DNA from: Rhodobacteraceae bacterium HLUCCA12
GTDB lineage: Bacteria > Pseudomonadota > Alphaproteobacteria > Rhodobacterales > Rhodobacteraceae
NCBI GenBank assembly: GCA_001314715.1
Contig: LJSV01000017.1
Span: 1 to 53,492, forward strand
Reading direction: 5' to 3'
Length of the DNA: 53,492 nucleotides
Part shown: positions 216 to 14,166 of the stretch, one piece after another
Layout of the letters: every line of letters begins with the position of its first letter
Numbering within the stretch: position 1 is the first letter of the stretch
Made by a program: the position numbers and the translations under genes
The notes under the pieces: model-generated
Told to the model about the DNA's origin: nothing
What the model saw: the letters and a program-made list of their open reading frames with translations, nothing else
Database searches by the model: none

Positions 216-962
216 TTAGCCGAAGGCGCCGGAAAACCCGTTCGAGAGAACCGTGCTGTCCGAACCGCAGATTGCCAAGGCCACCCGACCATCATAGCGC
301 GCCAGATCAGGCATTGTCATGGTGAAGATCCCGCCAGCGCATTGCCTGTCTGCCGCTGCGTCCAGTACGCCGTCAATCGCGTGTTCAAGCGACATGGCGC
401 GGGCCGCGGCGGCAAGGCCCACCCCCAGATCCCCCGGACCGACGAAAGCCAGATCAATCCCCGGCACCGCGAGAATGGCGTCGAGCGCATCCAGCGCGTC
501 GACCGTTTCGATCTGAATGGCGACGACCGTCTGCGCGCGCGCGGCATCCAGGTAGTCCGGCAGATTGCGACCGTAGCCCGAGGCGCGGCAGGGTCCGAGC
601 CCACGCCGTCCTTCCGGCGGAAAGCGTGCGGCCGCGACCGCCGCGCGCGCTTCGTCGGCCGATGAGACGCGCGGCACAAGAACGCCCACCGCGCCAAAAT
701 CCAGCGCCTGCCCGATGGCAGCGGCGTCCGGCCCCGGCACGCGCACAAGCGCGGGCACATCCCAAAGCGCGGCGGCGCGGAGCATGTCTTCGGCCATGGT
801 GGGCGCGATCGGCCCGTGTTCCATGTCGATACAGACGAAGTCGGGCCGCGCCGCGCAGGCGATTTCTGTCACCATCGGCGATGGCACCGCCAGGAACGGT
901 CCGACCAGCGCGGGCCGTTCGCCAAGCCGGGCGCGGGCGATTTCCGAGCGAAGCGCGATCAT
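216..962 (-). CDS. HpcH/HpaI-family aldolase (2,4-dihydroxyhept-2-ene-1,7-dioate aldolase-like)
   Basis: A 248-residue TIM-barrel aldolase of the HpcH/HpaI family. Family members use a divalent metal to split (or form) a 2-keto-4-hydroxy acid into pyruvate or glyoxylate plus an aldehyde or acyl-CoA. Visible signatures are FVCIDMEHGP near residue 38 and GAVGVLVPRV near 85. The metal-ligand strand AIQIETVDALD lies near 145 and the second ligand segment IDLAFVGPGDLG near 165. The ATG at 962 is chosen because it overlaps the stop of the upstream FAD oxidase as ATGA. A longer open frame beginning at 1253 is only the antisense-like extension through that gene. It is the last gene of the GntR-LLM-FAD-aldolase unit, so it probably performs the terminal C-C cleavage. 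The substrate is unknown. Confidence 0.9.
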   Translation of the reverse strand: MIALRSEIARARLGERPALVGPFLAVPSPMVTEIACAARPDFVCIDMEHGPIAPTMAEDMLRAAALWDVPALVRVPGPDAAAIGQALDFGAVGVLVPRVSSADEARAAVAAARFPPEGRRGLGPCRASGYGRNLPDYLDAARAQTVVAIQIETVDALDALDAILAVPGIDLAFVGPGDLGVGLAAAARAMSLEHAIDGVLDAAADRQCAGGIFTMTMPDLARYDGRVALAICGSDSTVLSNGFSGAFG

Positions 963-2338
963 GGCGCGAATCCCTTTCCGGGGTTGAGAATGCCGCGCGG
1001 GTCGAGCGCGGATTTGAGCCGGCGCATGGCGCCGATCTCGGCCTCGGTGCGGCTGTAGCCAAGATAATCGCGCTTGATCGCGCCGATCCCGTGTTCGGCC
1101 GATATCGTGCCGCCGAGATCGCGGATCACGCCGTAGACGAAACTCTTGATCGCTGCCGCCGGCTGATCCTGCCCGGCTTTCGGCACGTTGACCACCAGAT
1201 GCAGGTTGCTGTCGCCCATGTGACCGTAGGATAGCGCGCGCGCATCGGGCCAACGCGCGGCAATGCCCGCTTCCAGCCGCGCAACGGCCTCGGCCATGCG
1301 CGCCAGCGGAACGCCCACGTCAAAGGCCGTCAGCGGCCCCAGGATGCGGCCGTATTCCGCCACCGCCTCGCGCACCGCCCAAAGCGCGCGTTCCTCGCGC
1401 GCCGAGGCGGCAAGGACGGCGTCCTTCAGCGCACCGGCCTCCATCGCGTCGGCAAGACAGGTCTCCAGCCGCGTTTGCAGCCCGTCGTCGAAGCCCCCGG
1501 CCTCGATGATGACATAGGCGCCATGCCGACCCGACAGCGGATGCGTCGCGTCGATGCCCGCGCGCATGAAGTCGTAGAAACTGGGCCACATCACCTCGAA
1601 CGAGATCAGCGCCGGGCCAAGCCCGGCGCGCGCGCGCGCCAGCAGCGCCAGCACCGCCGCCGTGTCGTCACAGCCGCAAAAGGCGGTCGCGCTGTGGGTC
1701 GGGCGCGGTTGCAGCCGCAACACGGCTTTTGTCACGACGCCCATCACCCCCTCGGTACCGATGAAGAGTTGCTTCAGATCCAGACCCGCGTTGTTCTTGA
1801 TCATGGTGTTCATCGAGTTCAGCACGGTGCCGTCGGCCAGAACGGCCTCCAGCCCCAGCACGTGATCGCGCGCCATGCCGTAGCGCAAGACCTGGTTGCC
1901 ACCGGCATTGGTGGCGATCACGCCGCCGATGGTGCATGAGCCGCGCGCGCCCAGATCGACCGCCAGCAACAGCCCGGCCTCCTGCGCCGCCTCCTGCGCG
2001 GTTTGCAGTACGCAGCCGGCCTCGGCGGTCAGGGTGGCGGTCTGTGGATCGACCGACAGCACACGGTTCATGCGCTCAAGCGACAGCGCCACGGCGCCCG
2101 CCACCGGATGCGCGCCGCCCGATATGCCGGTCAGACCACCCTGCGGCACCACGGGCGTGCCGGACTCATGGCAAAGCCTGAGCGCGGTTGCGACCTGTTC
2201 GGTCTCGCGCGGGCGGATCAGCGCCAGTGGCGCAACCGGCGGCAGGCCGGACCAGTCGTGGTGGTTGCGCTCGGGAATGTCGGTGGTGACCACATCGGCG
2301 CCAAGGGCGGCGGTCAGTCGCGCGGCAATATCGCTCAT
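959..2338 (-). CDS. FAD-binding oxidoreductase, D-lactate/glycolate/2-hydroxyglutarate dehydrogenase type
   Basis: A 459-residue GlcD-type flavoenzyme, typical family length. The N-terminal FAD_binding_4 domain shows VVPQGGLTGISGG near residue 65 and the pyrophosphate-binding stretch TIGGVIATNAGGNQVLRYG near 140. The C-terminal FAD-oxidase_C domain ends with SAEHGIGAIKRDYL and LDPRGILNPGKGF, both diagnostic. Members oxidise D-2-hydroxy acids to 2-keto acids and pass electrons to quinone or cytochrome c. The start overlaps the LLM gene stop by four bases, and the stop overlaps the aldolase start, so the three are translationally coupled. A 2-keto acid made here could feed the adjacent aldolase (inference). 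A specific substrate cannot be assigned. Confidence 0.9.
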   Translation of the reverse strand: MSDIAARLTAALGADVVTTDIPERNHHDWSGLPPVAPLALIRPRETEQVATALRLCHESGTPVVPQGGLTGISGGAHPVAGAVALSLERMNRVLSVDPQTATLTAEAGCVLQTAQEAAQEAGLLLAVDLGARGSCTIGGVIATNAGGNQVLRYGMARDHVLGLEAVLADGTVLNSMNTMIKNNAGLDLKQLFIGTEGVMGVVTKAVLRLQPRPTHSATAFCGCDDTAAVLALLARARAGLGPALISFEVMWPSFYDFMRAGIDATHPLSGRHGAYVIIEAGGFDDGLQTRLETCLADAMEAGALKDAVLAASAREERALWAVREAVAEYGRILGPLTAFDVGVPLARMAEAVARLEAGIAARWPDARALSYGHMGDSNLHLVVNVPKAGQDQPAAAIKSFVYGVIRDLGGTISAEHGIGAIKRDYLGYSRTEAEIGAMRRLKSALDPRGILNPGKGFAP

Positions 2339-3423
2339 CCGCGCAGCCCCGCGCGCGTCAGGATCGGCAGAACACCCTCGCAGAAATAGGGCAGCTCATT
2401 GAGGAAGTTGACAAAGCTCACGGTCGTTCCCGCAAAACCGGCGCGCGACATCGCCACCATCTGTTCGGCGATATCCTCGGGCGTGCCGATCAGCGGATAG
2501 GTGCCCGCCCCGCCGGCGAACCATTTCCGGCGCAGGCGATAGGTCTCCTCGTCATGGTTTTGCGAATTCGCGGCCTGGGTGCCGATCATGTAATCCAGCG
2601 CCGCATCGTCGGCCATGGTGACGGCGTAATGCTCGTAATAGTCTTCGGCCTCGGCCCGGCTGGGGCGGCAGACGACATGCGTGGTGGTATAGACCCCCAC
2701 CTGCCGCCCGGTCCGGGCGCTGCGCGCGGCGATATCGTCGATGGTGTCGCGGCCGGCGTCGATGCTCTTGAATGTGGTGAAAAGAAAATCGGCATGCGCC
2801 GCGGCAAAGGCCCGTCCCGGCGGCGAAAACGCCGCATTCAGCACGGGCGGGCGGGTGCCGCGCACCGGCTTGGGCGCCGTCGCCGCACCGCGAAGCTGGT
2901 AATACGTGCCGTCATGGTCGAAGGGCTCGGCCTCGGCATAAAGTCGTGAAACGATGTCGATCCACTCGCCAGCCTGATCATAGGGCGCATCGGCCTTGTT
3001 CACCCCGAACATGGCGAATTCGTCCGGGTTCCAGCCCGCGACGATATTGACCCCCGCCCGCCCGTTCGAGGCCTGATCGATGGTCGCCAGCGCCTTGGCG
3101 GCGAAGACAGGATGCACCATGGGCACATGCACGGTGGAAAAAAGCGCGATCCGCTCGGTCACTCCGGCAAGCGCGGCGGCGAAGGTGAAGGTCTCGTAGG
3201 AATGCTGACGCGCGTTGATCTCGCCGCCATACCCCTTCCAGCGCGCGATCGGCAGGAAGAATTCGATGCCGGCACGATCGGCGATCTGCGCGGCCTGCAC
3301 GATCTCGGACCAGCGGGCGGGCCAGCGCTCGGGCACCTTGGTTATCGTCAGACCGCCATCGGCATTGGCGGAAAAGACCCCGAGTTTGAAGCGGTTTGAA
3401 GAATGCATGGGATGCGGGGTCAT
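2335..3423 (-). CDS. LLM-class flavin-dependent monooxygenase
   Basis: A 362-residue luciferase-like monooxygenase of the SsuD/RutA-like branch, which uses FMNH2 and O2 to oxygenate small organic substrates. Characteristic segments are the N-terminal barrel strand KLGVFSANADGG, then AADRAGIEFFLPIARWKGYGG-type substrate-pocket residues. The core motif is SNGRAGVNIVAGWNPDEFAMFG. The ATG at 3423 is chosen because GAGG lies just upstream and the protein family begins near this point. A second ATG lies at 3408. The upstream open reading to 3525 overlaps the GntR gene and is not used. No flavin reductase gene is visible in this window, so the partner must be elsewhere. It is co-oriented with gntR (47-base gap) and coupled to the FAD oxidase. 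Confidence 0.9.
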   Translation of the reverse strand: MTPHPMHSSNRFKLGVFSANADGGLTITKVPERWPARWSEIVQAAQIADRAGIEFFLPIARWKGYGGEINARQHSYETFTFAAALAGVTERIALFSTVHVPMVHPVFAAKALATIDQASNGRAGVNIVAGWNPDEFAMFGVNKADAPYDQAGEWIDIVSRLYAEAEPFDHDGTYYQLRGAATAPKPVRGTRPPVLNAAFSPPGRAFAAAHADFLFTTFKSIDAGRDTIDDIAARSARTGRQVGVYTTTHVVCRPSRAEAEDYYEHYAVTMADDAALDYMIGTQAANSQNHDEETYRLRRKWFAGGAGTYPLIGTPEDIAEQMVAMSRAGFAGTTVSFVNFLNELPYFCEGVLPILTRAGLRG

Positions 3424-3470
3424 GGCTGCCTCGGTGTTGACGGTATGGGGCGCGGCGAAGGGTCGGTTGG

Positions 3471-4151
3471 TCAGTCCCGTGCTTCGATGTCGTCGGCGGT
3501 GGCACTGACCACCCGCTCGAACCACTGAAACGCGGCATCGATGAAATCTTCCATGATCTTGCGGGCCAATTGCGGATCGCGCGCCTCGAAGGCTGCGACC
3601 AGATCGCAGACACCCTTGGCAGCGGTCGCGCGGGCATCCGGATCCACCAGCGTGGCCCGGCGCACCAGAACCACCTGATCATCGAACTTGGCCAGCGTTT
3701 CCTGCAAACGTCGGTTGGGAATGCGCGACAGCCAGAGCGCGCGAAAGGCGATATTGGCGGCCGCGGACTCTTGCTGGCTTGTGGCGGCCAGCAGGCGATC
3801 GCGCCCGGCGACATAGCGCGCAAGATCGGCCTCGGTGACGTTGCGCGCGATGTCGGCGACCGCCTGCGGTTCCAGAAGGCGGCGGATCTGGAAGATCTCC
3901 TCGATGTCGCGCAGTGTCAGCGTGGGCACGACAAAGCGCCCGTCCTGTTGCTCGACCAGACCGTTCAGCGACAGCCGGAACAGCGCCTCGCGAACCGGGG
4001 TGCGCGATACCGACAGGCGCCGCGCCAGATCTTCCTCGATCATCCGGTCGCCGGGTTGAAACACATTGTCGAGCATCATCGTCCGTAGCCGGTCATAGAC
4101 CTGAAGGCTCAATGGCGGCTGTCGGCGGATGCTGAAATCGGTTTGGGTCAC
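3471..4151 (-). CDS. GntR-family regulator with FCD ligand-binding domain
   Basis: A 226-residue FadR-subfamily regulator. Residues 10-75 form the winged helix, with RLSVSRTPVREALFRLSLNG as recognition region. Residues 90-215 are the all-helical FCD domain that usually binds a carboxylate effector. The start is GTG at 4151, preceded by AGGAG at a good distance. A perfect palindrome, ACTGTATACAGT, lies 17 bases upstream of the start, and the same box precedes the TRAP transporter unit. That strongly suggests autoregulation plus control of substrate uptake. GntR repressors of this class are normally relieved by the substrate or an intermediate of the pathway they control, so the ligand is probably what the TRAP system imports (inference). 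Confidence 0.93.
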   Translation of the reverse strand: MTQTDFSIRRQPPLSLQVYDRLRTMMLDNVFQPGDRMIEEDLARRLSVSRTPVREALFRLSLNGLVEQQDGRFVVPTLTLRDIEEIFQIRRLLEPQAVADIARNVTEADLARYVAGRDRLLAATSQQESAAANIAFRALWLSRIPNRRLQETLAKFDDQVVLVRRATLVDPDARATAAKGVCDLVAAFEARDPQLARKIMEDFIDAAFQWFERVVSATADDIEARD

Positions 4152-4165
4152 GGAACTCTCCTGAA

Positions 4166-4181
4166 AATACTGTATACAGTG
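4166..4181. promoter_or_regulatory. Putative GntR operator, copy 1
   Basis: The 16-base sequence AATACTGTATACAGTG contains a perfect 12-base palindrome (4169-4180). It lies just ahead of the gntR start. An identical 16-mer, inverted, occurs at 7985-8000. The family typically binds short palindromes around a central TAC/GTA core, which fits the TGTATACA centre here. The assignment to this GntR protein is inferred from position and repetition. Confidence 0.7.
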
Positions 4182-4229
4182 CGCAGAAACCTGTCAATTC
4201 GGCTTCCTCCCAGAGGTTGCATCGCAGGC

Positions 4230-4916
4230 TCAGGGGCGCAAGTGTTCTGTCCACATCGGGTAATGGGCATTCCCCCCTTCGAACGGGGGAAAGCTGTGAA
4301 AATCGGCGCGCAATTCATGCCGGACCGGGGATTGCAGCGCCGCCGTCAGGGCCTCGGGGCCGTCGAACATGACCCGGTTACGCTGCATGTGGTCGGCCTT
4401 GGCATGGGGAAGATGGCTGACCCAGTCCACCCGTGTCAGGATCTCGATGCCGCGGATGCCGGGGAAGCGGCGAAACAGCGGCGGGTGGCCGGTCATGTAA
4501 TGGTCAAGCCAGGCGTTCAAATCGCGGGCCGGGCCGGGATAATGCACCACATACGAACAGGGCAGCGCCCCCGGCGGAGTTTGCAGCACGTTATCGTCGA
4601 CCGGGTATTCGCGCCGCCAGAAGGCCTGCGCTGTTGCCCGCGCTCCTGCCTGCGATGGCAAGGCTGAAGACAACGCCTGCAACGCGCCTTTGCGCCCGGC
4701 GGCGGCTTCGAGCCTTTCCAGTCGGCCGAAGTGAAGCTGAACAACCAGCGGCGGTGCGGCGCCGTCATCGACATAGAGATCCGTGGCCGTGGCCGGCGTG
4801 AAGATCAGCGCCTCTTCCAGCGCCGGCACATCTGCCAGCACCGACCGCAACGCCGCCAGTTCGTCGGCCGGCACGACCTCCGGCCCCTCGTGCGACAGCA
4901 CAAGTGCAAAGCTCAT
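4230..4916 (-). CDS. EthD-like dimeric alpha/beta-barrel protein
   Basis: A 228-residue soluble protein. The C-terminal half (about 120-225) resembles the EthD/ABM dimeric ferredoxin-like barrel: a strand (SYVVHYPGPA), then LNAWLDHYMTGHPPLFRRFPGIRGIEIL. In EthD proteins the H-x5-H-P-P-like segment belongs to a family used in degradative oxygenation or lactone chemistry. The N-terminal half is probably a second, diverged copy of the same fold, since two-barrel members exist. It starts one base after the dctM stop, making it the last gene of the TRAP unit. An enzymatic or accessory role next to the imported substrate is likely, but I cannot name a reaction. Confidence 0.7.
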   Translation of the reverse strand: MSFALVLSHEGPEVVPADELAALRSVLADVPALEEALIFTPATATDLYVDDGAAPPLVVQLHFGRLERLEAAAGRKGALQALSSALPSQAGARATAQAFWRREYPVDDNVLQTPPGALPCSYVVHYPGPARDLNAWLDHYMTGHPPLFRRFPGIRGIEILTRVDWVSHLPHAKADHMQRNRVMFDGPEALTAALQSPVRHELRADFHSFPPFEGGNAHYPMWTEHLRP

Positions 4917-4917
4917 C

Positions 4918-6240
4918 TCAGCGTCCCATCAGGCTGGGCAGATACAGCGCAAGCTGCGGTACCATCGCCACCAGGAAGATCAGGAACAGGGTCATCAGCA
5001 CATAGGGCATCGCCGCATAGGACATGGTGCGCAAGCTGGTGCCCTTTGGCGCCACCCCCAGCACGATGTAGAGCAACAGGCCGAACGGCGGCGTGGTAAA
5101 GCCCACCTCAAAGGCCAGAAGCAGCATCAGGCCGAACCAAACCGGATCGAACCCATAAAGATGGGCGATCGGCATGAACAAGGGCAGCGTGATGAGCATC
5201 ATCGACACCTGGTCCATGAACATGCCAAGCACGAGAATGATCACGATCATCATCAGCAAGATGCCATAGGGTCCGATATCCATCCCGGTGATCGAGGTGA
5301 TGAAACCGTTCGACGCGCCCGAGAAGGCGAATATCTGGCTGAACGTGGTCGAAGCCGTGATTATCAGGAAGGTCATCGCCGTGACCTTCATCGCGTCATC
5401 GAGCGATTTCCAAATCACGCTCCAGCTGAACTTGCGATAGACCAGCAAAAGTAACAGCACGCCCATGCAGCCAAGCCCCGCGCTTTCCGTCGGCGTGGCA
5501 ATGCCCATGATGATGGTGCCGACGACGCAGAAGATCAGAAAGCTCATCGGCAGGATGTTCGACGTCACGGCGACGAACTTTGCCCAGCCGCTGGCCGCGG
5601 GCACGGCGTATTGCGGTGCGGCGTCGGGGTCGATCTTGGTCTGAAAGAAGATCAGAAGGCCGAACAGCACCACCAGCACCAAACCTGGCAGAAACCCGGC
5701 GATCAGAAGCGCGCCGACATCGATCTGCGCAAGGCTTCCCAAAAGCACCCCCAGCGTCGACGGCGGGATGATCACCGCCAGGCTGCCAGCGCCCAGAATC
5801 GGGCCATAGGCCATGTGCGGCTTGTATTTGCGCTTGAGCATCTCGGGCGCCATCAGGCTGCCCATCATCCCGGCATTGGCAAGGCTGGAACCCGAAAGGG
5901 CCGCAAAGATCGACCCCGATCCCAGCGTGACGTAGGAAAGCCGCCCGCGCAGGTTGCCGATCGACAGATCGAGCGCGTGGATCACCCGCTCGCCAAGCCC
6001 GGAGCGAAAGAACAGGCTGCCCATGACCAGAAACATCGGCAGCGGGGCCAGCGAATAGGTGGTGATCGCCTCGGAAAAGTTGGACACCATCTGCGTGATG
6101 CCGCGCGCACCGCCGAAGAACAGGAACACCCCGGCGATATTGGTGGCAAAGAAGGCGAATGCGACGGGCAGCCCGATGCCCATCAGGAACAGGATGGAGG
6201 CGATCAGGAACGAGAAAGGGAAAAGCCAGTCCATGATCAA
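4918..6240 (-). CDS. dctM: TRAP transporter large permease (DctM family)
   Basis: About 440 residues with roughly a dozen hydrophobic helices. It is the Na+- or H+-coupled translocating subunit of a tripartite ATP-independent periplasmic transporter. Family signatures include SGSSLANAGMMGSLMAPEML and GPILGAGSLAVIIPPSTLGV in the first half. FMDQVSMMLITLPLFMPIA and FEVGFTTPPFGLLLYIVLGVAP lie in the second half. The first start, TTG at 6240, overlaps the dctQ stop as TTGA. An ATG six bases further on (6234) is equally plausible. It is cotranscribed with dctP, dctQ and the EthD-like gene from the operator at 7985. The cargo is probably an organic acid. Confidence 0.95.
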   Translation of the reverse strand: MIMDWLFPFSFLIASILFLMGIGLPVAFAFFATNIAGVFLFFGGARGITQMVSNFSEAITTYSLAPLPMFLVMGSLFFRSGLGERVIHALDLSIGNLRGRLSYVTLGSGSIFAALSGSSLANAGMMGSLMAPEMLKRKYKPHMAYGPILGAGSLAVIIPPSTLGVLLGSLAQIDVGALLIAGFLPGLVLVVLFGLLIFFQTKIDPDAAPQYAVPAASGWAKFVAVTSNILPMSFLIFCVVGTIIMGIATPTESAGLGCMGVLLLLLVYRKFSWSVIWKSLDDAMKVTAMTFLIITASTTFSQIFAFSGASNGFITSITGMDIGPYGILLMMIVIILVLGMFMDQVSMMLITLPLFMPIAHLYGFDPVWFGLMLLLAFEVGFTTPPFGLLLYIVLGVAPKGTSLRTMSYAAMPYVLMTLFLIFLVAMVPQLALYLPSLMGR

Positions 6241-6749
6241 TGCCCCAGGGTTTCAGCGGGATCGCTGTCATAGAAATCATCATGGCCAAGCAGGTATCGC
6301 AGCCATTCCAGCGCCGCCAGGAAGAAGGCCAGCACCATCGGCGCGAAGACCACCCATTTGGGAATGTCGAACGTGCGCATCTCGTAGGTGCCGCGCTCAA
6401 TCGCCAACATCAGGGAATTCAAGGCAATCCAGCCCAGGTACAGGCACAGGGCGATACAACCGAGATAGACGATTTTGGAAAGAACCTGACGCGCACCACC
6501 GGGCAGGACCACCCGCAGGAAGATCACGAACACATGCCCCTTTTTCCGCACCAGCCAGGGCATGGCCAGGAACGTGATGTAGAGCAGGAAGAATTCCGAT
6601 GTGTTGACCGCCCATGCCAGCGGCCTCAGCCCGGCATTGCGCACCGCAACATCCGTCACGACCAGCAAAACCAACGCCCCGATCAGCAAGCGCGCGATCA
6701 CGGCCAGAAACCAGCAAAGCCGGCCGGAAAGGTCAAAGACAAGGTTCAT
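6237..6749 (-). CDS. dctQ: TRAP transporter small permease (DctQ family)
   Basis: A 170-residue membrane protein with four hydrophobic helices (about residues 8-30, 42-62, 83-105 and 125-148). It carries the DctQ hallmark of an aromatic-rich second helix (NTSEFFLLYITFLAMPWLVRKKGHV). It scaffolds DctM to form the membrane part of the TRAP carrier. It lies between dctP and dctM and is coupled to dctM by overlapping stop and start. The ribosome-binding site is weak. The 116-base gap from dctP contains a strong hairpin. Confidence 0.92.
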   Translation of the reverse strand: MNLVFDLSGRLCWFLAVIARLLIGALVLLVVTDVAVRNAGLRPLAWAVNTSEFFLLYITFLAMPWLVRKKGHVFVIFLRVVLPGGARQVLSKIVYLGCIALCLYLGWIALNSLMLAIERGTYEMRTFDIPKWVVFAPMVLAFFLAALEWLRYLLGHDDFYDSDPAETLGH

Positions 6750-6826
6750 GAATCGTCCCTAATGTCAGTCAATTCAGATCGGCGGACCTTGGCCCAGCCG
6801 GGGTTCAGGCCATGACGCAGAGTGTC

Positions 6827-6865: not shown

Positions 6866-7840
6866 TCACTCGAAGAGTTCGCGCAGGCGTTCGATATGGG
6901 TCGGATCGCGCGCTTCCATCCGCTCCCAGGCGGCGTCCGCGGCCATTTCCAGAAAGCGCTCGCGGCCCTCGCCCGTCATCTCGACGACGGTCTGGCCATC
7001 GTCGATCATCTCTTGCGCCAGACGGTCGTTCAGTTCTGCGGTCTCTTCGAAACTGCGGCGTTCGAACTCTTCCGAAACCTCAAGCACGATCTCCTGTGCC
7101 TCGGGCGAAAGCGCGTTGAATGCGTCCAGGTTCATCGAGATCAGCACGTCCATGCGGAAAAAGCCCGGATCGACGCGGTAGCGGGTGAACCGGTCCCAGC
7201 CGAACGAGGCATAGCCCAGAACCGGATAGGCATTGGCATTGATCACGCCGCGCTCCAGCGAGGTATAGACCTCGGGCGCGGGCTGAATCACCATCGTCGC
7301 GCCCAGGTTCTCGAACAGCTGGCGGTAAAGCGGGGACGCGCGGATCAGAATATCCGAGAAGTCCAGCATGCCGTCGTCACGCAGAGTTGGTTCGTCGACC
7401 GTCCAGATATGGAACCCGGCCGAGGCGTTCATATGCGCCAGAAGCATGGCATTGCCCTTGCTCTGGTAGATTTCATTGATGAAATCCCAGGCGCCGGTTT
7501 CGCGCGCTTCCATCGGCGTCACCGATGAGGCCGAAAGAACCTCGCCTTCGGGCACCAGTTCCAGATAAAGGCCCGCCGGCGTATGGATCATGTCCACCAG
7601 ACCATCTTGCTGCGCCGTGCCCAGTTGCGGGTTGGGGATCACCTCGGGGCCGCCGCGAACGTCGATGCGCACCACGCCTTCGCCGCGTTCGTTGACGGCA
7701 TCGACAAAGCGCAGGAATTCCTGCGTGAAATCGCTTGGCGTGGGTGCGAAATGCACCGCGTTGATGACATCCTCGGCACTGGCGGCACCGCCGAGCGCCG
7801 AAAGGACAGCGGCGAAAGCCGCGGTTTTCAGTTTTTGCAT
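6866..7840 (-). CDS. dctP: TRAP transporter periplasmic solute-binding protein (DctP family)
   Basis: 324 residues with a clear Sec signal peptide (MQKLKTAAFAAVLSALGGAASA, cleavage near residue 22). The DctP fold follows: FAPTPSDFTQEFLRFVDAVNERG at the N-terminus, the mid-protein strand GATMVIQPAPEVYTSLERGVINA, and a helical C-terminus. Most DctP proteins fix the ligand carboxylate with a conserved Arg in the central region. LIRASPLYRQLFENLGA near residue 165 carries candidate Arg residues. AGGAGAGG sits just upstream of the ATG. It is the first gene of the transporter unit and follows the palindromic operator by about 145 bases. The ligand is unknown. Confidence 0.94.
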   Translation of the reverse strand: MQKLKTAAFAAVLSALGGAASAEDVINAVHFAPTPSDFTQEFLRFVDAVNERGEGVVRIDVRGGPEVIPNPQLGTAQQDGLVDMIHTPAGLYLELVPEGEVLSASSVTPMEARETGAWDFINEIYQSKGNAMLLAHMNASAGFHIWTVDEPTLRDDGMLDFSDILIRASPLYRQLFENLGATMVIQPAPEVYTSLERGVINANAYPVLGYASFGWDRFTRYRVDPGFFRMDVLISMNLDAFNALSPEAQEIVLEVSEEFERRSFEETAELNDRLAQEMIDDGQTVVEMTGEGRERFLEMAADAAWERMEARDPTHIERLRELFE

Positions 7841-7984: not shown

Positions 7985-8000
7985 CACTGTATACAGTATT
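7985..8000. promoter_or_regulatory. Putative GntR operator, copy 2
   Basis: This carries the same 16-base sequence as the box ahead of gntR, in inverted orientation (reverse complement AATACTGTATACAGTG). It lies in the 263-base gap between the racemase stop and the dctP start, where the TRAP promoter should be. Sixteen identical bases at two promoter-proximal sites of one functional island are unlikely by chance. Confidence 0.7.
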
Positions 8001-8103
8001 CGACCCAGGGCGTCAACGAATCCGAGCACGCCGGAACCCCAGGGCAAGCCGGACATGATCAGGACGAATAAGGGCGGCGCGCCCGGCAAGACAGGATGCG
8101 CGT

Positions 8104-8889
8104 TCATGCCCCGCGTCCCTTTGCCACCAGCGCGCGAAAGTCATCGACCGCCTGTTTCGGCGCGCGCGCACAGAACGGGCCGCGCGCGGGTTCCAACCCG
8201 TTCAATCGCGCCAGCCGCACCTGCATCTCGGCCTGCATCAGCGTCACCGCCGCGCAATTGACGACCGGCGCGTGGCCCACTTTCAGGCCGTGTTCGCCCC
8301 CCACCAGCAGGCCCGGCAGCACGCCGGCGGGCACGATCACATCGGCCCCGCCCGTCACCATCGGCTCGGCCACCGCCCGGAACGCCGCGATCATCCGGTC
8401 CTTGGCGGCCGCGTCGCCGGCAAAGGCGGCCGAGAAATCGGACGGGTCGGCGTTCAACCCCGCGACATGCGAGATGCGCTGCGACAATCCGTAAAGATCG
8501 CCCTGTTCCAGATGCATGCTGCGAAACACATCGTCCAGCGTCACCAGCCCGATCCGCCGGCCCATCTGCGCCGCCAGATGCAGCGTGGCCTCTCCGGTGC
8601 CGACGACCTGGATGTCCACCGCCGACTTCAGCTCGTAAAGTCCCGGATCCTGAAAATGACCCATGACGACGGCGTCATATCCCGCCTCGGCGGCCGCGAT
8701 GCCGTTGTCGACGGCAATGATCGCGCAACGAAATTCCGACAGGCGACAGAACGCGCGGTCGGGCGGGCTGATGCCATGGACCTCGACAGTGGTGCCGGGG
8801 CTGGCGATGGTGTTCAGATACGCGGTCAGCCGCGCGATATAGGCCGCGCTCGCCGTCGCATCGATGAAGCTTTGCCAAAAGATCTTCAA
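8104..8889 (-). CDS. Aspartate/glutamate/hydantoin racemase-family protein
   Basis: About 261 residues. The fold family uses two Cys in cofactor-independent racemases and decarboxylases, and also includes maleate isomerases. Visible segments are CAIIAVDNGIAAAEAGYDAVVMGHFQDPGLYELKS-like early elements, GRRIGLVTLDD in the middle, and GADVIVPAGVLPGLLVG late. The usual first catalytic Cys (GC.sD-type loop) is not obvious, because the loop reads MGHFQDPG. VNCAAVTLMQAE keeps a late Cys. The start is inferred to be TTG at 8889, overlapping the cyclase stop as TTGA. The family alignment begins KIFWQSF right after it. It is the last gene of the acyl-CoA synthetase unit. Confidence 0.75.
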   Translation of the reverse strand: MKIFWQSFIDATASAAYIARLTAYLNTIASPGTTVEVHGISPPDRAFCRLSEFRCAIIAVDNGIAAAEAGYDAVVMGHFQDPGLYELKSAVDIQVVGTGEATLHLAAQMGRRIGLVTLDDVFRSMHLEQGDLYGLSQRISHVAGLNADPSDFSAAFAGDAAAKDRMIAAFRAVAEPMVTGGADVIVPAGVLPGLLVGGEHGLKVGHAPVVNCAAVTLMQAEMQVRLARLNGLEPARGPFCARAPKQAVDDFRALVAKGRGA

Positions 8890-9677
8890 GGCTTTTCCCC
8901 CTGTTCCGGCACCAATGCCAACACCCGCAACGGGCTGCCCGACCCCGCGTGCACCTTCAGAGGTGCTGCCATCACCAGCGCACCCTTTGGCGGCAGCAGG
9001 TGCAGGTTGGTCAGGCATTGCAGACCATAGCGTCCCGCCCCGTGCAGATAGTGATGCGCGGGAAAGGGCGGGTCGAAATGGTCGCACTGCCCGGCATCGG
9101 TGCCGATGGTTTCCGTGCCGAAGCCAAGTATGCCGCGCTCATGAACCAGCCAGTGAATCGCCTCGGCATCCGGGCCCGGCGTGTGCGCGCCGTCCGCGCG
9201 CAGGTTGGCGAACGCCGCGCCCTTTCGCTGCGACCAGTCGGTGCGCATCAGCACCCAGGCACCCGCGGGAATGCGGCCATGCGCGTTCTCCCAGGCATCG
9301 AGCGCCGCGCGGGTCAGCAGGAAATCATCGTCGCGGGCACTTTCGGCGGAACAGTCGATCACGCAGACCGGCGCGATCATGTGCTCGGGCGGCAGGGTGT
9401 CGACGGTGCCGCGCGGCTGGTCGCGGCCGGTGAACCAGTGTGCGGGCGCATCGAAATGAGTGCCGGTATGTTCGCCGAAACTGAGGTTGTTCCAGTACCA
9501 CGCAGGCCCCGCCGCATCATAGCGCGAGATCCGTTCGATCCGCACCGGGGCCGACGGCGCGAATTCGGGCGGCACCACGATCGTGGGGAAATCTTCGGTC
9601 AGGGTGTGGGTCAGGTCGACCACTCGCACCGCACCCGAAGCCAGCGCGCCACTCAGCATTTGCAGAACATCGGTCAT
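8886..9677 (-). CDS. Cyclase-family metal-dependent hydrolase (kynurenine formamidase-like)
   Basis: 263 residues of the Cyclase/KynB fold, which hydrolyses amides, lactones or formamides. The metal motif HTGTHFDAPAHW (about residue 75) matches the family HxGTHxDxPxH signature. VVDLTHTLTEDFPTI near the N-terminus and the late GTETIGTDAG strand are also typical. The ATG at 9677 follows GAGGG and starts 10 bases after the upstream stop. It is coupled downstream to the racemase. In this island it may open a lactone or amide intermediate before or after CoA activation (inference). Confidence 0.88.
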   Translation of the reverse strand: MTDVLQMLSGALASGAVRVVDLTHTLTEDFPTIVVPPEFAPSAPVRIERISRYDAAGPAWYWNNLSFGEHTGTHFDAPAHWFTGRDQPRGTVDTLPPEHMIAPVCVIDCSAESARDDDFLLTRAALDAWENAHGRIPAGAWVLMRTDWSQRKGAAFANLRADGAHTPGPDAEAIHWLVHERGILGFGTETIGTDAGQCDHFDPPFPAHHYLHGAGRYGLQCLTNLHLLPPKGALVMAAPLKVHAGSGSPLRVLALVPEQGEKP

Positions 9678-9687
9678 CGCGGCGCCC

Positions 9688-10935
9688 TCACAGCTTGCCC
9701 TGGGAAAGATCGCGTTCAACCGCCTTCGGGTTGTCCGCAAGCCGGGCCAGCAGGTCGCGCGCGACATCTCCCGCGACCACCTCTTCAAGACCCCGCATCA
9801 AGCCATCGACCACGGCTCCGGCCAGTGCCTTGCCGGTGACCTTGGGTTGCGGGGCAAGCTGGAACCAGGCGTCCTCGGTCGGCGCTGTCAGCACGGTCAT
9901 CAAGCGCACACCGCCGCCAGCCAACTGTGCCCGCAGGCTGTGCGACACCGAAAGCGCGGCGGCATGGGCGGCGCAATAGCCCGCCATTTCGGGCGCTGTT
10001 GCGCGGGCAAAGACTGACAGCACATTGACCCAGGCCACCGCCCCCGGCGCGTTTTCATCGCCGTCGGCGCCGCGCCCGGCCAGCACCGGGCCAAAGACGC
10101 GGGCCAGCCGCATGAGGCCAAAGGCCACGACCTCCATGGCCATGCGGGCATGCGTCGCGGCCGCCGGCGCCGACAGCCCGCCGGGGCGGGGGTGATCGGC
10201 GGTATTGATCAGGATTTCGACCTTGCCGCCGATCGCGCGCGCCAGATCCTCGACCGATCGGTCCGAACTCAGATCGAGCGCCACGAAGCGCAGCCCCGGC
10301 ACGGCCGCGAACTCGGCGCGGTTTTCCAGCGGTTTCCAGTCTTCGGGCAGACCCATGAAGATCTCCGCAGCCCCCGCCGCTGCCAGCTTGTGCGCCAGCG
10401 GCAGGGCTGCGACGTGGCGGGCATCGGTTATCAGCACCCGCCGCCCGCGCGGGTCGGCGACCATTTCCTGCCATTGCCTGTCGATGGTCATGTCGCCTCC
10501 GTTCTCGGGTCCCGCGTACAGCACGGCCTGCCCGGCGCGATCCAGCATGAGGGTCAGTCGCAGCCGATCACGCGGAACGGGAGCGGGATGCAGATGCACC
10601 AGCGCCATCGGCCCGGCATCCATCTGCACCAGCCCCACGCGCCACGGCGCGCGCTCGCGGAAATAGGGGTCGGCGGGCACCTCGGCGCGGGTCTCGGACA
10701 TGAGCACCGCCCCTGACGGGGCGTCAGCAGCCGTGATGTCGATGGACAGGCAGTTCGGGCAGGCCTCAGGCATCGGCCAGGCATAGGCGCCACAGGCGCC
10801 ACAGCGCGGCAGCGCAAAGCGGCCCTCGGCGGCGGCGGCGGTCAACAGATGCGCCTTGCGGCTGCACGCGGCGGGGGGCAGCAGCGGCTGTCGCGTGCGA
10901 CGAAGCGGGTTCTTGCGCGGGCGCCTGGGCGTCAT
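9688..10935 (-). CDS. DUF35 (OB-fold/zinc-ribbon) protein fused to a degenerate short-chain dehydrogenase
   Basis: 415 residues. Residues 30-150 are a DUF35 acyl-CoA-associated unit: the rubredoxin-like ribbon PRCGACGAYAWPMPEACPNC with two CxxC pairs, then an OB fold. Residues 160-415 have the length and rhythm of an SDR Rossmann domain. The cofactor motif is degenerate, however (ITDARHVAALPLA where TGxxxGxG is expected). The catalytic YxxxK reads YCAAH (about residue 317). The SDR half may therefore be structural or a pseudo-enzyme. Start and stop are coupled to thiolase (ATGA at 10932) and cyclase. DUF35 proteins such as ChsH2 bind SCP2-type thiolases to build an aldolase, and the thiolase next door fits that pairing. 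Confidence 0.8.
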   Translation of the reverse strand: MTPRRPRKNPLRRTRQPLLPPAACSRKAHLLTAAAAEGRFALPRCGACGAYAWPMPEACPNCLSIDITAADAPSGAVLMSETRAEVPADPYFRERAPWRVGLVQMDAGPMALVHLHPAPVPRDRLRLTLMLDRAGQAVLYAGPENGGDMTIDRQWQEMVADPRGRRVLITDARHVAALPLAHKLAAAGAAEIFMGLPEDWKPLENRAEFAAVPGLRFVALDLSSDRSVEDLARAIGGKVEILINTADHPRPGGLSAPAAATHARMAMEVVAFGLMRLARVFGPVLAGRGADGDENAPGAVAWVNVLSVFARATAPEMAGYCAAHAAALSVSHSLRAQLAGGGVRLMTVLTAPTEDAWFQLAPQPKVTGKALAGAVVDGLMRGLEEVVAGDVARDLLARLADNPKAVERDLSQGKL

Positions 10936-12098
10936 GCAGCCTCCAACACCATGGCGCCGGACCCAAGGCCGCGGTCGAAATTGATCATGCCGAAGCCCGA
11001 AACCAGCGCGCGCCGCGCCCCGGCCACCTGCCGGGGCCCGGCCGCGCCGGTCAGTTGGCGAATTGCCTCGACAATTCCAAGATGCCCGCCCGCGCAACCC
11101 GCCTGACCGCTTGACAACTGCCCGCCCGAGGTGTTGTGCGGCAAGCTGCCGGTCACGGTGAAATCGTGTCCGGCGATGAACTCGGCCAGCCCGCCCTTGG
11201 GACACAGCCCCAGATCCTCGAACTGCATCGCGCTGATGAACGGGTAGTCATCATATGTCTGCACCAGATCGATCGCGTCGGGACCAATGCCCGCCATCGA
11301 CCACAGCGTGTCGATATCGCGCGCCCAGCCGCCGCGCAGCATCACCGGATCGGCGGGAAAGGCGTTGTGGCGCTCGATCGCGGCGGTCAGACGGACAAAC
11401 GGCAAGCCCTGGGCGCGCGCCGTTTCCTCGCGCAGGATCAGAAACGCCTCGGCCCCGGCGCAGGGCAGGACGCAGTCAAACAGATGGATTGGCGGGGCAA
11501 TGGGACGCGAACCCAGATAGTCATCCAGCGAGAGCGGCTTTTTCATCAGCGCATGTGGGTTCTTCAGCGCGTTGTCCCGCTGGGCCACCGCGATCTTGCC
11601 GCAATGCGCGCGCGAAAGGCCGCTGGCCTCCATATAGGCCTGCGCGATCAGCGCAAAGCTGACATTTGGCCCGCCAGCCCCATAGGGATAAACCGCGTCT
11701 TGCGAGAATCGCGAGAAGTTTTCCAGCGACTGGCGAAAGCTCTGCGGCGCGTTGGTGTCAGCCGCGATACAGGCAACCATGTCGGCATCCCCGGCCTGCA
11801 CCGCCCGCGCTGCGCGGCGCACTGCCACCATCCCGGCCACACCGCCCAGAGGGACGAAATCCACGAACCGGGGCGACAGGCCGAAATGCTGGGTCAGGCC
11901 GATGGCACTGTCCGGCGCCATCGAGAAACTGGCGACCGACAGGCCGTCGAACGCAGGGTGCGGCACCCCGGCCCCCGCGGCCAGGCCGGCCAGCGCCCGG
12001 CCAAGCCACCACTGCGCGCTTTCGGGGGAATAGCGGGTATAGGGCACCGTCACCGGCACCGCCAGAACCACCCCGTCATATCCCATCGGAGTGGCCAT
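10932..12098 (-). CDS. SCP2-type thiolase-like protein lacking the nucleophilic Cys (lipid-transfer/retro-aldolase type)
   Basis: 388 residues with the SCP-x/nonspecific lipid-transfer thiolase fold. The C-terminal signature LPHNTSGGQLSSGQAGCAGG is intact. At the usual nucleophile loop it reads VPLGGVAGMVAV, so the thiolytic Cys is Gly or Ala. That is the state seen in Ltp2-like proteins, which act as side-chain retro-aldol lyases with a DUF35 partner rather than as thiolases (established family knowledge). The gene directly precedes and overlaps the DUF35-SDR fusion, supporting a two-subunit complex. Tyr residues in TYDDYPFISAMQFEDLG (about residue 280) are candidates for acid/base roles. 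Reaction on a CoA ester made by the upstream ligase is inferred. Confidence 0.85.
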   Translation of the reverse strand: MATPMGYDGVVLAVPVTVPYTRYSPESAQWWLGRALAGLAAGAGVPHPAFDGLSVASFSMAPDSAIGLTQHFGLSPRFVDFVPLGGVAGMVAVRRAARAVQAGDADMVACIAADTNAPQSFRQSLENFSRFSQDAVYPYGAGGPNVSFALIAQAYMEASGLSRAHCGKIAVAQRDNALKNPHALMKKPLSLDDYLGSRPIAPPIHLFDCVLPCAGAEAFLILREETARAQGLPFVRLTAAIERHNAFPADPVMLRGGWARDIDTLWSMAGIGPDAIDLVQTYDDYPFISAMQFEDLGLCPKGGLAEFIAGHDFTVTGSLPHNTSGGQLSSGQAGCAGGHLGIVEAIRQLTGAAGPRQVAGARRALVSGFGMINFDRGLGSGAMVLEAA

Positions 12099-12105
12099 GC
12101 CGTCC

Positions 12106-12531
12106 TCAGACCACGCTCAAGGTGACGTCGACATTCCCGCGCGTGGCATGCGAGTAAGGGCAGCGCTGGTGCGCGGCCTCGACGATTTCTTGCGCCTGGG
12201 CCGGTTCGATGCCCGGCAACGCGACGGCCAGGTCGACCGCCAGCGCATAACCCGGCTCCACCGGGCCAAGCCCGACGGTTGCGGTGACGGTCACATCGTC
12301 CCCCAGCGAAAGTTTGCGCTGCCGTCCCACCAGCTTGACGGCGCCCAGAAAACAGGCGGCATAGCCGGCAGCGAAAAGCTGCTCGGGGTTGGTTCCCGCG
12401 CCGCCCGGGCCGCCCAGCGCCTTCGGCACGCTCAGATCGAGCGCAAAGGCGCCGTCAGGGCTTTTCGCCGTTCCCTCACGCCCGCCAGTGGCAGTCATGG
12501 TCGCCGAGTACAGGATCTTTTCAGGCGTCAT
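12106..12531 (-). CDS. ohr: Organic hydroperoxide resistance protein (Ohr/OsmC family)
   Basis: 141 residues, the usual Ohr length. It reduces organic peroxides with two redox Cys. Both are present: AAGYAACFLGA (near residue 60) and HQRCPYSHATRGNVDV at the C-terminus, the latter the Ohr-specific signature. An excellent GGAGG lies upstream of the ATG at 12531. It sits between the ligase and thiolase genes with gaps of 12 and 7 bases, so it is cotranscribed. A peroxide defence gene fits a pathway that includes a flavin monooxygenase and an FAD oxidase. The regulator OhrR is not adjacent. Confidence 0.93.
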   Translation of the reverse strand: MTPEKILYSATMTATGGREGTAKSPDGAFALDLSVPKALGGPGGAGTNPEQLFAAGYAACFLGAVKLVGRQRKLSLGDDVTVTATVGLGPVEPGYALAVDLAVALPGIEPAQAQEIVEAAHQRCPYSHATRGNVDVTLSVV

Positions 12532-12543
12532 CGTTCCCCTCCT

Positions 12544-14166
12544 TCAGGATGTGGCGGCGCGCGCGGCGCCCTTGATCTGGCGAACATCCAGCGCATGTCC
12601 GTCGGCCAGCGCGGCTTCCGCGTTCCGCCGAATCTGGCCGCGTTGCAGCTTCTGCGTGGCCCCGAGCGGCAGTTCATCAACCACCAGCAGCCAGCCCGGC
12701 AGCTTGTGATAGGACAGGCGTTCGGCCAGCCGCGCCATCAGCGTCTGTGAGAACTGCGGGTTGGCGGTTTCAACAGGGTCGCCGGGGACGACAAAGGCGA
12801 ACACCTCTTCGCCCCGGATCGGGTCGGAGACCGGCGTCACGGCGGCGGCGCGCAAGGCGGGATCAGCCTGCAAGGCGGTCTCGACCTCAAGCGCCGAGAT
12901 GTTTTCACCCGCCCGGCGGATGATGCTTTTCCGGCGATCGATGAAATAGAACAGCCCCTGCGCATCAACCCTGACCACGTCGCCGGTGTGGAACCAGCCG
13001 CCCTCCCAGGCGGCCTCGGTCGCCGCCGGATCGCCCAGATAGCCGGAAAAGAACCCGCGGCGCGGATCGTCGCCCTGGCTGCGCACCAGCAACTCGCCCG
13101 GTGCGCCCGGTTCGACATCGCGGCCCGCCTCGTCAACGATGCGCCATTCCATCCCGGCACGCGGCCGGCCGATGCAACGCGGCCCCAGCGGCCCGGTCAG
13201 TCCGGCGGTATCGGTTATGGCGGCGCCGCCGGTTTCGGTCATCGCCCAGCCTTCGACAACCGGCAATCCGAACCGCGCCTCGAACGCCGCCTTGTGGTGG
13301 TCCTCGACGCCGGGACTGAAAATGAAACGCGCCCGATGACGGCGTTCATCCGGGCTTTCGGGAAGTTGCAGCAGGATCGCCGGAATCACCCCAAGCCCGT
13401 GCACGATGGTCGCGCCTGAATCGGCCACGGTGGCCCACCACCGGCTGGCGCTGAACCGGTCCAGCGGCACGATGGTGCCGCCGATCAGCATCATTCCCAG
13501 CGCCGTGCATCCCAGCGCGTTCATGTGGAAAAACGGCAGGGGCGTCAGCGAAACCTCGCAATCGGGGCGCATCGCCGCGATCCCCGGCATCGAGACATAC
13601 CATTGCGCCACGTTGATCAGGTAGTGGTTCGACAGGATGCAGGCCTTGGGCTTGCCCGTGCTGCCCGAGGTGAACAGAAGCGCCGCCTCGTCGTCGGGCA
13701 GGCCCGCGCGCGGCGGGCGGGGCGTGGCGGCGGGCGGCGGCGGCGCATCGAACGACGCCACCGGCACACCCGGCGGAAGGCCTGTGGCCAACAACGCCTC
13801 GAACCCTGGCACGGCAATCACCGCCTCGGCCTGCGAGACTTCCATCTGATGGCGCAACTCGTCGGGGCGCATATCACCGTTGAGCGGCACGACCGAGGCA
13901 CCGATGGCATTGAGCGCCAGCCAGTGCAGCAGAAATTCCGGGCGGTTCAGCAACAAAAGCGCCAGGCGCGATCCGGCGCCATAGCCCGCCGCGACATAGG
14001 CGTCACGCAAGGCCGCGATCTGCCGCGCCGCCGCGTCATAGGTGAGGGCATAGCCCGAAGGCGCCCAGGGAAGCGCGGCCGAGGCGGGCGCGCGCACGAA
14101 ATCCTGCGCCGGAAGACGCGCCGCACTGCGCGCAAATGCCTCGTATGGCGATGTGACCTGCGGCAT
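12544..14166 (-). CDS. Acyl-CoA synthetase (AMP-binding, ANL superfamily)
   Basis: 540 residues. It activates a carboxylate to acyl-AMP and then acyl-CoA. The P-loop LLFTSGSTGKPKACILSN lies near residue 165. The A5 motif GWAMTETGGAAI is near 310. The A7-A8 hinge includes GWFHTGDVVRVDAQGLFYFIDRRKSIIRRAGENIS-type residues near 395. The catalytic Lys region ELPLGATQKLQRGQI lies near the C-terminus. It is the first gene of the unit running to the racemase and is divergent from a LysR regulator across 105 bases. The long hydrophobic pocket cannot be read for substrate identity, and crotonobetaine/carnitine- or medium-chain-type acids are possible. Confidence 0.92.
   Translation of the reverse strand: MPQVTSPYEAFARSAARLPAQDFVRAPASAALPWAPSGYALTYDAAARQIAALRDAYVAAGYGAGSRLALLLLNRPEFLLHWLALNAIGASVVPLNGDMRPDELRHQMEVSQAEAVIAVPGFEALLATGLPPGVPVASFDAPPPPAATPRPPRAGLPDDEAALLFTSGSTGKPKACILSNHYLINVAQWYVSMPGIAAMRPDCEVSLTPLPFFHMNALGCTALGMMLIGGTIVPLDRFSASRWWATVADSGATIVHGLGVIPAILLQLPESPDERRHRARFIFSPGVEDHHKAAFEARFGLPVVEGWAMTETGGAAITDTAGLTGPLGPRCIGRPRAGMEWRIVDEAGRDVEPGAPGELLVRSQGDDPRRGFFSGYLGDPAATEAAWEGGWFHTGDVVRVDAQGLFYFIDRRKSIIRRAGENISALEVETALQADPALRAAAVTPVSDPIRGEEVFAFVVPGDPVETANPQFSQTLMARLAERLSYHKLPGWLLVVDELPLGATQKLQRGQIRRNAEAALADGHALDVRQIKGAARAATS

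Follow-up and report, generated by a model that had tools for sequence, protein, structure and literature searches.

The gene island at positions 216 to 14166 of a contig from Rhodobacteraceae bacterium HLUCCA12 (LJSV01000017.1, assembly GCA_001314715.1) appears to encode the lower half of the iad pathway of auxin breakdown, without the usual first oxygenase and with an added uptake and oxidation module. Judged by its sequence, the locus is a variant of this known pathway; its core corresponds to one already described, and the module and the missing oxygenase set it apart. With moderate confidence, we propose that unit 1 of the island encodes the lower, isatin-forming part of the iad pathway and is supplied by units 2 and 3. 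The window is the whole stretch of 53,492 nt that was analyzed.

Organization of the island

All of the families named in the sequence-only reading were found in the island by profile matches on the minus strand (Table 1). Three further island genes had gone unlisted (an OsmC/Ohr peroxiredoxin, an EthD-like protein, and a GntR regulator), as had a zinc-type dehydrogenase gene that adjoins LysR outside the island. Homologues of this dehydrogenase lie by LysR in L006, L008 (Gemmobacter nectariphilus DSM 15620), L010, L011, and L066/L108 and near LysR in L013 and L014. Island genes are tightly spaced, with 4-base overlaps at the LLM/GlcD, GlcD/HpcH, DctQ/DctM, and thiolase/SDR junctions, and the TTG start of the racemase-fold gene, as read by eye, overlaps the stop of the preceding gene. 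Spacing and operators delimit the three same-strand units that had been proposed (unit 1, 14166 to 8104; unit 2, 7840 to 4230; unit 3, 4151 to 216), and their status as transcripts is a prediction.

The operator thought to be shared by these units stands for units 2 and 3, where ACTGTATACAGT precedes the DctP and GntR genes, but none is found at unit 1. An exact search across the 3.73-Mb genome returned these two copies and no others. The rarity of ACTGTATACAGT rests on this genome-wide search because 2.51 matches are expected by chance in the window at ≤3 mismatches, at which no extra match was found. Unit 1 is more likely regulated by the divergent LysR than by the operator. No MarR regulator occurs among the island genes, which have LysR and GntR instead; the genome does have a MarR gene on another contig, beside IorAB. 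Open reading frame picks in GC-rich loci include antisense frames, and all counts across loci were taken from tblastn layouts only.

Table 1. Features of the island and its flank in the window
Feature	Position	Strand	Basis
AMP-forming acyl-CoA ligase, iadF position	12544..14166	-	Pfam; tree
OsmC/Ohr-type peroxiredoxin	12106..12531	-	Pfam; NCBIfam TIGR03561 above cut-off
Cys-less thiolase-fold protein, IadG position; proposed retro-aldolase	10932..12098	-	Gly86; Tyr282-Asp-Asp-Tyr285
DUF35 (C4 zinc ribbon + OB fold) fused to degenerate SDR, IadH position; proposed aldolase partner subunit	9688..10935	-	Pfam, motif counts
Predicted isatin hydrolase, cyclase family, IadI position	8886..9677	-	5nnb, E 2.9e-111
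Asp/Glu/hydantoin-racemase-fold protein without two catalytic Cys	8104..8889	-	family match, alignment
Palindromic operator ACTGTATACAGT, upstream of dctP	7986..7997	.	one of two genome copies
TRAP solute-binding protein DctP	6866..7840	-	nearest solved relatives 4mnc/4mni
TRAP small permease DctQ	6237..6749	-	family match
TRAP large permease DctM	4918..6240	-	family match
EthD-like protein	4230..4916	-	profile match below cut-off; structure model
Palindromic operator ACTGTATACAGT, upstream of GntR gene	4169..4180	.	second genome copy
GntR-FCD regulator	3471..4151	-	family match
Luciferase-like (SfnG/RutA-group) flavin monooxygenase (LLM)	2335..3423	-	family match, solved relatives
GlcD-type FAD 2-hydroxyacid oxidase/dehydrogenase	959..2338	-	family match
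HpcH/HpaI-type aldolase	216..962	-	family match
LysR regulator, divergent	14272..15180	+	retained next to unit 1 at related loci without the oxygenase
Zinc-type alcohol dehydrogenase-like protein beside LysR	15199..16173	+	Pfam; homologue layouts

Unit 1 and the iad pathway

No named pathway with this exact gene set was known to the sequence-only reading, which does not hold for unit 1: by family and order, its core parallels iadF-G-H-I in the aerobic pathway for indole-3-acetic acid, in which ligase, thiolase, DUF35/SDR, and cyclase genes follow one another (PMC12633357; gene numbers in PMC10374108). This likeness was judged from descriptions of families and gene order rather than from named Variovorax sequences. 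As in the iad loci of Variovorax paradoxus CL14/CL014, Bradyrhizobium, and Ruegeria pomeroyi, the ligase, thiolase, dehydrogenase-annotated, and isatin-hydrolase-type genes share the same order, and, as in iad systems, the genome has an IorAB pair. In contrast to the iad locus, IadCDE, IadJ, and MarR are missing, whereas LysR, GntR, a TRAP importer, LLM, GlcD, HpcH, and EthD-like genes are present. No Rieske oxygenase alpha or beta gene occurs among the island genes, and an IadD-type query and PF00848 detected no ring-hydroxylating oxygenase in the 99.9% complete genome. We recognized no oxygenase-less iad locus, indole-lactate aldolase, or auxin TRAP importer in the open-licence literature.

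The core is widely kept together. Among loci of 15 kb or more, the SDR and cyclase genes are both found no more than about 10 kb from the thiolase gene at 43/47 GTDB loci and 31/33 family-genome loci, and an IadD-type oxygenase accompanies the thiolase at 28/47 and 26/33, respectively; these tallies overlap because four locus pairs (L066/L108, L015/L110, L043/L131, and L055/L133), each on contigs of equal length, seem to be the same contigs. Some thiolase loci have no cyclase or ligase (a cyclase is present at 63 of 69), in part because contigs end. The window's ligase falls in a clade apart from the ligases of oxygenase-bearing loci in a midpoint-rooted tree without support values. Two genomes, G263 and G358, carry a full oxygenase-bearing locus and a second thiolase-ligase pair (L144 and L145); both lineages occur in these genomes, and therefore the lineages may differ in substrate. 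A second related ligase gene of HLUCCA12 lies on contig C14 amid glyoxalase-type, PEP-mutase, isochorismatase, and LysR genes, and no iad partner was detected around it.

The Cys-less thiolase and the proteins encoded beside it

Loss of the nucleophilic Cys, as called from the sequence alone, is borne out by alignment to L004 and L005, two ordinary thiolases that this genome also encodes: their Cys lies opposite Gly86 and their catalytic His opposite Tyr282. The YDDY motif and a Gly in place of the nucleophile were found in 103/103 aligned sequences (the window included; 5 of 107 loci omitted as partial), and Asn and Gly positions are likewise invariant. The best solved relative, CtSal (9myr; E 7.3e-47), is a proven DUF35-bound retro-aldolase whose catalytic base is Tyr302 in YDCY. 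Like Ltp2-ChsH2(DUF35) and Sal-Shy(DUF35), the window's protein joins a thiolase fold without a Cys nucleophile to a Tyr in a YDxY/F motif and a DUF35 partner, here encoded by the next gene in what is a predicted complex. Unlike those systems, the motif is YDDY rather than YDHF or YDCY, the DUF35 domain is fused to a degenerate SDR rather than to MaoC as in steroid systems, and the context is an isatin rather than a steroid locus. Counting against the likeness, alignment places Asp284 at the site of CtSal Cys304 and Gly334 at that of Ltp2 Tyr344, leaving neither known proton donor in the window's thiolase. The protein is probably a C-C-bond-cleaving aldolase that releases isatin.

The DUF35-SDR fusion is real: zinc-ribbon and adh_short models score above their cut-offs, and the OB-fold reaches 25.3 bits against a cut-off of 27.1. 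Its second half belongs to the SDR family, but the Gly-rich dinucleotide motif is missing. Across the DUF35-SDR set, the zinc ribbon is kept in 98/98 sequences and TGxxxGxG in 0/98, versus 55/57 for the latter in an IadJ-type set; the SDR Tyr-Lys pair at strict spacing occurs in 4/98 versus 17/57, and this pair makes no clean control. The SDR half is probably a scaffold and not a dehydrogenase.

The family call of a cyclase-type hydrolase can be narrowed to an isatin-hydrolase orthologue. E values are 2.9e-111 to 2.4e-107 for its matches to three solved isatin-hydrolase sequences and 3.3e-83 for a fourth, and the alignment to 5nnb covers residues 4 to 258 of 263, including the HTGTHFDAP metal-binding region. 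The match is near full length, with this same region, for the isatin hydrolases of Labrenzia aggregata and Ralstonia solanacearum (excerpt of PMC6117287); unlike them, the window's gene shares its locus with a CoA ligase gene, and its activity is predicted. Contig C27 encodes another isatin hydrolase along with IorAB (IorA, 62%). For the racemase-family protein, the fold family stands, but both catalytic Cys positions are gone, being His and Ala/Gly in 22/22 sequences (some repeats). Racemization of oxindole-3-acetate was rejected on the loss of both positions, and identity as an AMDase was set aside, the first position being His here versus Gly in AMDases (excerpt of PMC4996985).

Uptake and oxidation genes

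The EthD-like protein scores 28.0 bits against a model cut-off of 30.5, and its predicted structure is a tandem ferredoxin-like barrel. The DctP relatives 4mnc and 4mni have as ligand what we take to be benzoylformate, a smaller aryl keto acid. Like the SfnG/RutA group, the window's flavin monooxygenase is of the LLM family, with 8t0u and RutA as its closest solved relatives, and it scores far under the SfnG and RutA model cut-offs; unlike that group, it occurs with GlcD and HpcH genes. The aldolase matches the HpcH/HpaI family profile.

The claim that all units form one pathway is supported in part. In the Gemmobacter loci L013 and L014, genes of units 2 and 3 accompany unit 1 in a different order (the HpcH match there spans residues 19 to 185 of 248, and GntR is unmatched), but elsewhere they are often not adjacent. 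LLM and EthD are strongly enriched in thiolase genomes: the thiolase is present in 7/8 genomes with an LLM orthologue and 6/6 with EthD, versus 38/394 overall. G040 has LLM without the thiolase, and G448, from the class search, has EthD without it; that search found EthD in 4/384 other genomes, three of them with the thiolase and all of one genus. In L174, L178, and L203, no more than 8 kb separates an LLM homologue from a cyclase homologue; the L174 cyclase is confirmed as isatin-hydrolase type, and those of L178 and L203 were judged solely by 52% identity to the window's. A Pfam search of neighbors in L172, L173, L175, and L176 found no indole-specific family near stand-alone LLM genes. The EthD gene adjoins Rieske genes in L199 and L200 and lies about 3 kb from them in L201; because of this proximity, EthD may not replace Rieske enzymes, and its candidacy as a replacement oxygenase is weakened. 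No IadD/E match was found near EthD in the class-search loci.

Proposed route and alternatives

From the observed sequence relationships, motifs, gene order, and co-occurrence, we infer all reactions, the substrate, and the roles of the unit 2 and 3 genes. The ligase would couple dioxindole-3-acetate (3-hydroxy-2-oxindole-3-acetate) to CoA as a thioester. Bound by the DUF35 domain, with the SDR half probably in a scaffold role, the Cys-less thiolase would not thiolyze dioxindole-3-acetyl-CoA; Tyr282 would deprotonate the tertiary beta-hydroxyl, and retro-aldol cleavage, modeled on Ltp2 and Sal with steroid side chains, would give isatin and acetyl-CoA. The hydrolase would convert isatin to isatinate, which the IorAB oxidoreductase, encoded on another contig, would probably take to the anthranilate level. 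The TRAP importer may take up an indolic or aryl carboxylate that feeds unit 1, and the flavin monooxygenase and/or EthD-like protein may oxygenate in place of the absent IadCDE and IadJ. Counting against isatin release, Variovorax without iadI accumulates a C8H7NO2 compound (the dioxindole formula) and not isatin (C8H5NO2), and the authors took the side-chain step as reductive (PMC12633357). A bolder and rather unlikely extension is a third aerobic indolic-acid route with isatin as the shared product of two retro-aldol steps: thiolase/DUF35 would yield acetyl-CoA, GlcD and HpcH acting on dioxindolyl-lactate/pyruvate would yield pyruvate, and the flavin monooxygenase, alone or together with the EthD-like protein, would hydroxylate the ring in place of Rieske enzymes. 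Support for this route beyond the window comes from G233 (L174), where the GlcD-HpcH-LLM-GntR genes are faced by genes for an aminotransferase and an isatin-hydrolase-type protein.

Other readings were weighed against the isatin-forming one. The missing nucleophile would also fit a thiolase that is a scaffold without catalysis, which we consider very improbable given that the YDDY, Asn, and Gly positions do not vary and that a catalytically proven relative has the same Tyr. The same core chemistry could serve a non-indole substrate, with another tertiary beta-hydroxyacyl-CoA cleaved to a ketone and another cyclic amide opened by the hydrolase. We hold this to be unlikely: the hydrolase matches solved isatin hydrolases (E 2.9e-111 to 3.3e-83) and the genome has a second isatin hydrolase and IorAB, although the best solved thiolase relatives are steroid-acting, the ligase clade differs from that of oxygenase-bearing loci, and both lineages occur together in G263 and G358.

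Units 2 and 3, with their own operator and regulator, might instead be a separate aryl-carboxylate pathway that lies beside unit 1 by chance, and LLM indeed occurs with GlcD but without unit 1 alongside in L172 to L176. Such an accident seems somewhat unlikely when most of the genes lie beside unit 1, in changed order, in L013 and L014 and when unlinked cases still co-occur with the thiolase (LLM, 4/5, P 2.6e-4; EthD, 4/4, P 6e-5; kinship ignored). The host may also perform no oxygenation of its own, with TRAP importing pre-oxidized catabolites (oxindole- or dioxindole-acetate) and LLM doing another job. This is a possibility of some weight, if still doubtful: no ring-hydroxylating oxygenase was detected in the genome (IadD-type query, PF00848), and a minimal locus (L009) has LysR-ligase-thiolase-DUF35/SDR-cyclase alone among the tested genes, but LLM co-occurs with the core, and DctP relatives 4mnc and 4mni presumably bind a smaller aryl keto acid.

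Implications for auxin catabolism

A published survey gathered auxin loci by adjacent homologues of Rieske-type iacC and iacD, as described in an excerpt of PMC9613470, and oxygenase-less loci would escape it because of this design. Degraders of auxin catabolites are therefore perhaps undercounted. The retro-aldolase reading would supply a mechanism for the side-chain step that was inferred from annotation in PMC12633357; under this reading, the IadH-type protein is predicted not to act as a dehydrogenase.

Gene content and correspondence to the iad pathway

The gene families named in the sequence-only reading are all present on the minus strand between 14166 and 216, and neighbors inside the blocks are spaced from a 4-base overlap up to a 116-base gap, with the racemase-fold start taken as 8889. 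ARAGORN also predicts a tRNA-Trp inside the acyl-CoA ligase frame (12931-13025, minus strand), probably a false positive. Elsewhere in the window, a urease alpha subunit gene (22293-24002, plus strand) and a branched-chain-type ABC permease with a periplasmic binding protein (46242-50882, minus strand) possibly point to urea or amide uptake.

Layout of the island, its flank, and the second isatin-hydrolase cluster
Feature	Position	Strand	Genes, in order
Unit 1	from 14166	minus	acyl-CoA ligase, OsmC/Ohr, Cys-less thiolase, DUF35-SDR fusion, cyclase-family hydrolase, racemase-fold protein
Unit 2	within 14166-216	minus	DctP, DctQ, DctM, EthD-like protein
Unit 3	to 216	minus	GntR-FCD, LLM monooxygenase, GlcD, HpcH
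LysR gene	from 14272	divergent from island	
Zinc-type dehydrogenase gene	next after LysR		
Second isatin-hydrolase cluster	L146 (G000 contig C27), 8824-15401		isatin hydrolase B type, FAD amine-oxidase family, MarR, IorA, IorB

The earlier view that no named pathway matches this gene set has to be given up for the core, which corresponds by order and families to the iad genes for indole-3-acetic acid. Relatives of the thiolase numbered 70 among GTDB contigs, and 38 of the 394 family genomes searched contained one at E 1e-100 or better. With queries taken from the window and from distant loci, the most frequent layout was IadD-IadE-ligase-thiolase-DUF35/SDR-isatin hydrolase-SDR, often with IorAB. 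Among loci of at least 15 kb in the GTDB and family-genome sets, which overlap each other, an IadD-type oxygenase occurred in 28/47 and 26/33, respectively, and DUF35-SDR together with the cyclase in 43/47 and 31/33. Pfam searches on one representative each confirmed the Rieske alpha and ring-hydroxylating beta families, and the best solved relatives of the cyclase are isatin hydrolases (2.9e-111). The commonest layout equals the iadD-E-F-G-H-I-J order assigned in PMC12633357; gene numbers in PMC10374108 are consistent with iadD-J, and PMC9613470 reports R. pomeroyi, here contig L056, as a carrier of the locus. The putative link of unit 1 to iad is drawn from gene order, families, and this R. 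pomeroyi contig.

A candidate retro-aldolase

The thiolase does lack its nucleophile, as had been claimed: Gly86 and Tyr282 stand opposite the nucleophilic Cys and catalytic His, respectively, of L004 and L005, two ordinary thiolases encoded in the same genome. Gly86 and Tyr282-Asp-Asp-Tyr are kept in 103/103 aligned sequences, counting the window's (5/107 loci were excluded as partial). Two other same-genome homologues (L002 and L003) are also Cys-less but carry the motif YDSF. Among solved structures, the window thiolase's closest relative is 9myr (CtSal with the DUF35 of CtShy); CtSal is described in PMC12329534 as a bile-acid retro-aldolase with Tyr302 as base and Cys304 as acid. Asp284 replaces Cys304 in the window thiolase and Gly334 stands at Tyr344 of Ltp2 (6ok1), so the proton donor of neither Sal nor Ltp2 is kept. 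The partner has a C4 zinc ribbon in 98/98 DUF35-SDR sequences and a dinucleotide motif in 0/98, versus 55/57 IadJ-type SDRs.

From the thiolase motif, the kinship with CtSal, and a DUF35-SDR without the dinucleotide motif, we infer that dioxindole-3-acetyl-CoA would yield isatin by redox-neutral retro-aldol cleavage. Against retro-aldol cleavage counts the C8H7NO2, isatin plus two hydrogens, seen in a Variovorax iadI deletion according to PMC12633357, which could be explained by cellular reduction of isatin. The main text of that paper contains no occurrence of "aldol."

A variant locus without the usual oxygenase

The window's genome is 99.9% complete, and neither an IadD-type query nor PF00848 found a match in it; the same family search was positive in 4/14 control genomes. 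In a midpoint-rooted tree displayed without support values, the window ligase falls in a clade composed solely of loci without IadD, and the second ligase of many related loci likewise clades only with IadD-less loci. This second ligase is absent from the window locus and from L009, L012, and L109; its nearest copy in the window's genome is on contig C14. In the thiolase tree, the sequences from IadD-less loci grouped together, with L016 and L111 adjacent. Diverged thiolase-ligase pairs (L144 and L145) occur in G263 and G358, which also carry a full oxygenase-bearing iad locus; these pairs suggest a second substrate.

On C27, the second isatin hydrolase is accompanied by IorA (62%), IorB, a MarR gene, and an FAD amine-oxidase-family protein. 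An LLM paralogue (46%) lies on C27 about 85 kb from this cluster. In G104 (L178) and G234 (L203), too, LLM paralogues have gene sets of a similar kind nearby.

Linkage of units 2 and 3

The proposal that the units form one pathway stood in part. Nearly the whole set (ligase, OsmC, thiolase, DUF35-SDR, cyclase, racemase-fold, LLM, GlcD, DctPQM, EthD, and a partial HpcH match) occurs together in L013 and L014, reordered and without GntR. LLM and GlcD lie away from unit 1 in L172-L176, with HpcH in 4/5 of these. In L006, L007, L008, and L066/L108, unit 1 and the second ligase are followed, as far as those pieces extend, by unit 2 and then the beginning of unit 3; the pieces end with no HpcH seen.

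LLM orthologues (E below 1e-130) were found in 8/394 genomes, 7 of them thiolase-positive, and EthD (E below 1e-30) in 6/394, all thiolase-positive. Excluding linked cases left 4/5 (P 2.6e-4) and 4/4 (P 6e-5), respectively, values uncorrected for shared ancestry, though the draw took roughly one genome from each genus. In the class draw, 3/4 EthD genomes were thiolase-positive, all one genus. LLM homologues are close to cyclase homologues in L174, L178, and L203; in L174, an aminotransferase gene separates the LLM side from a cyclase of isatin-hydrolase type. EthD-like genes also adjoin a divergent Rieske alpha/beta pair in L199 and L200, with TRAP genes nearby, and lie about 3 kb from such a pair in L201, near cyclase and ligase genes.

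The sequence ACTGTATACAGT precedes both DctP and GntR, its only exact copies genome-wide (reversed control, 0). At one mismatch or fewer, it recurs at one or both sites in L006, L007, L008, L066/L108, and L011; it was not found in the other 17 loci scanned at up to two mismatches. Of these 17, one (L177) belongs to the genome of the window itself, and several stop short of DctP or do not have it. Because the operator precedes DctP and GntR and has no copy upstream of unit 1, a common regulator seems to serve units 2 and 3, with unit 1 outside its control; the suggested common operator thus survives for two units of three.

The predicted DctP model (mean pLDDT, 88.6) best matches 4mni and 4mnc in fold and 4mnc in sequence; the ligand of both is taken to be benzoylformate. 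For the EthD-like protein, the model (pLDDT, 90.2) shows a tandem ferredoxin-like barrel, matched weakly by chalcone isomerase, putative monooxygenases, and an anthrone-oxidase-like protein, among others. In the racemase-fold family (8104-8889), a conserved HFQ motif occupies the position of the first catalytic Cys in 22/22 sequences; homologues also occur in Bradyrhizobium iad loci L051, L054, L059, and L060.

The core is part of a known pathway, placed in a new setting. What is new and open to testing is how its proposed aldol step proceeds and which oxygenation replaces the usual one.
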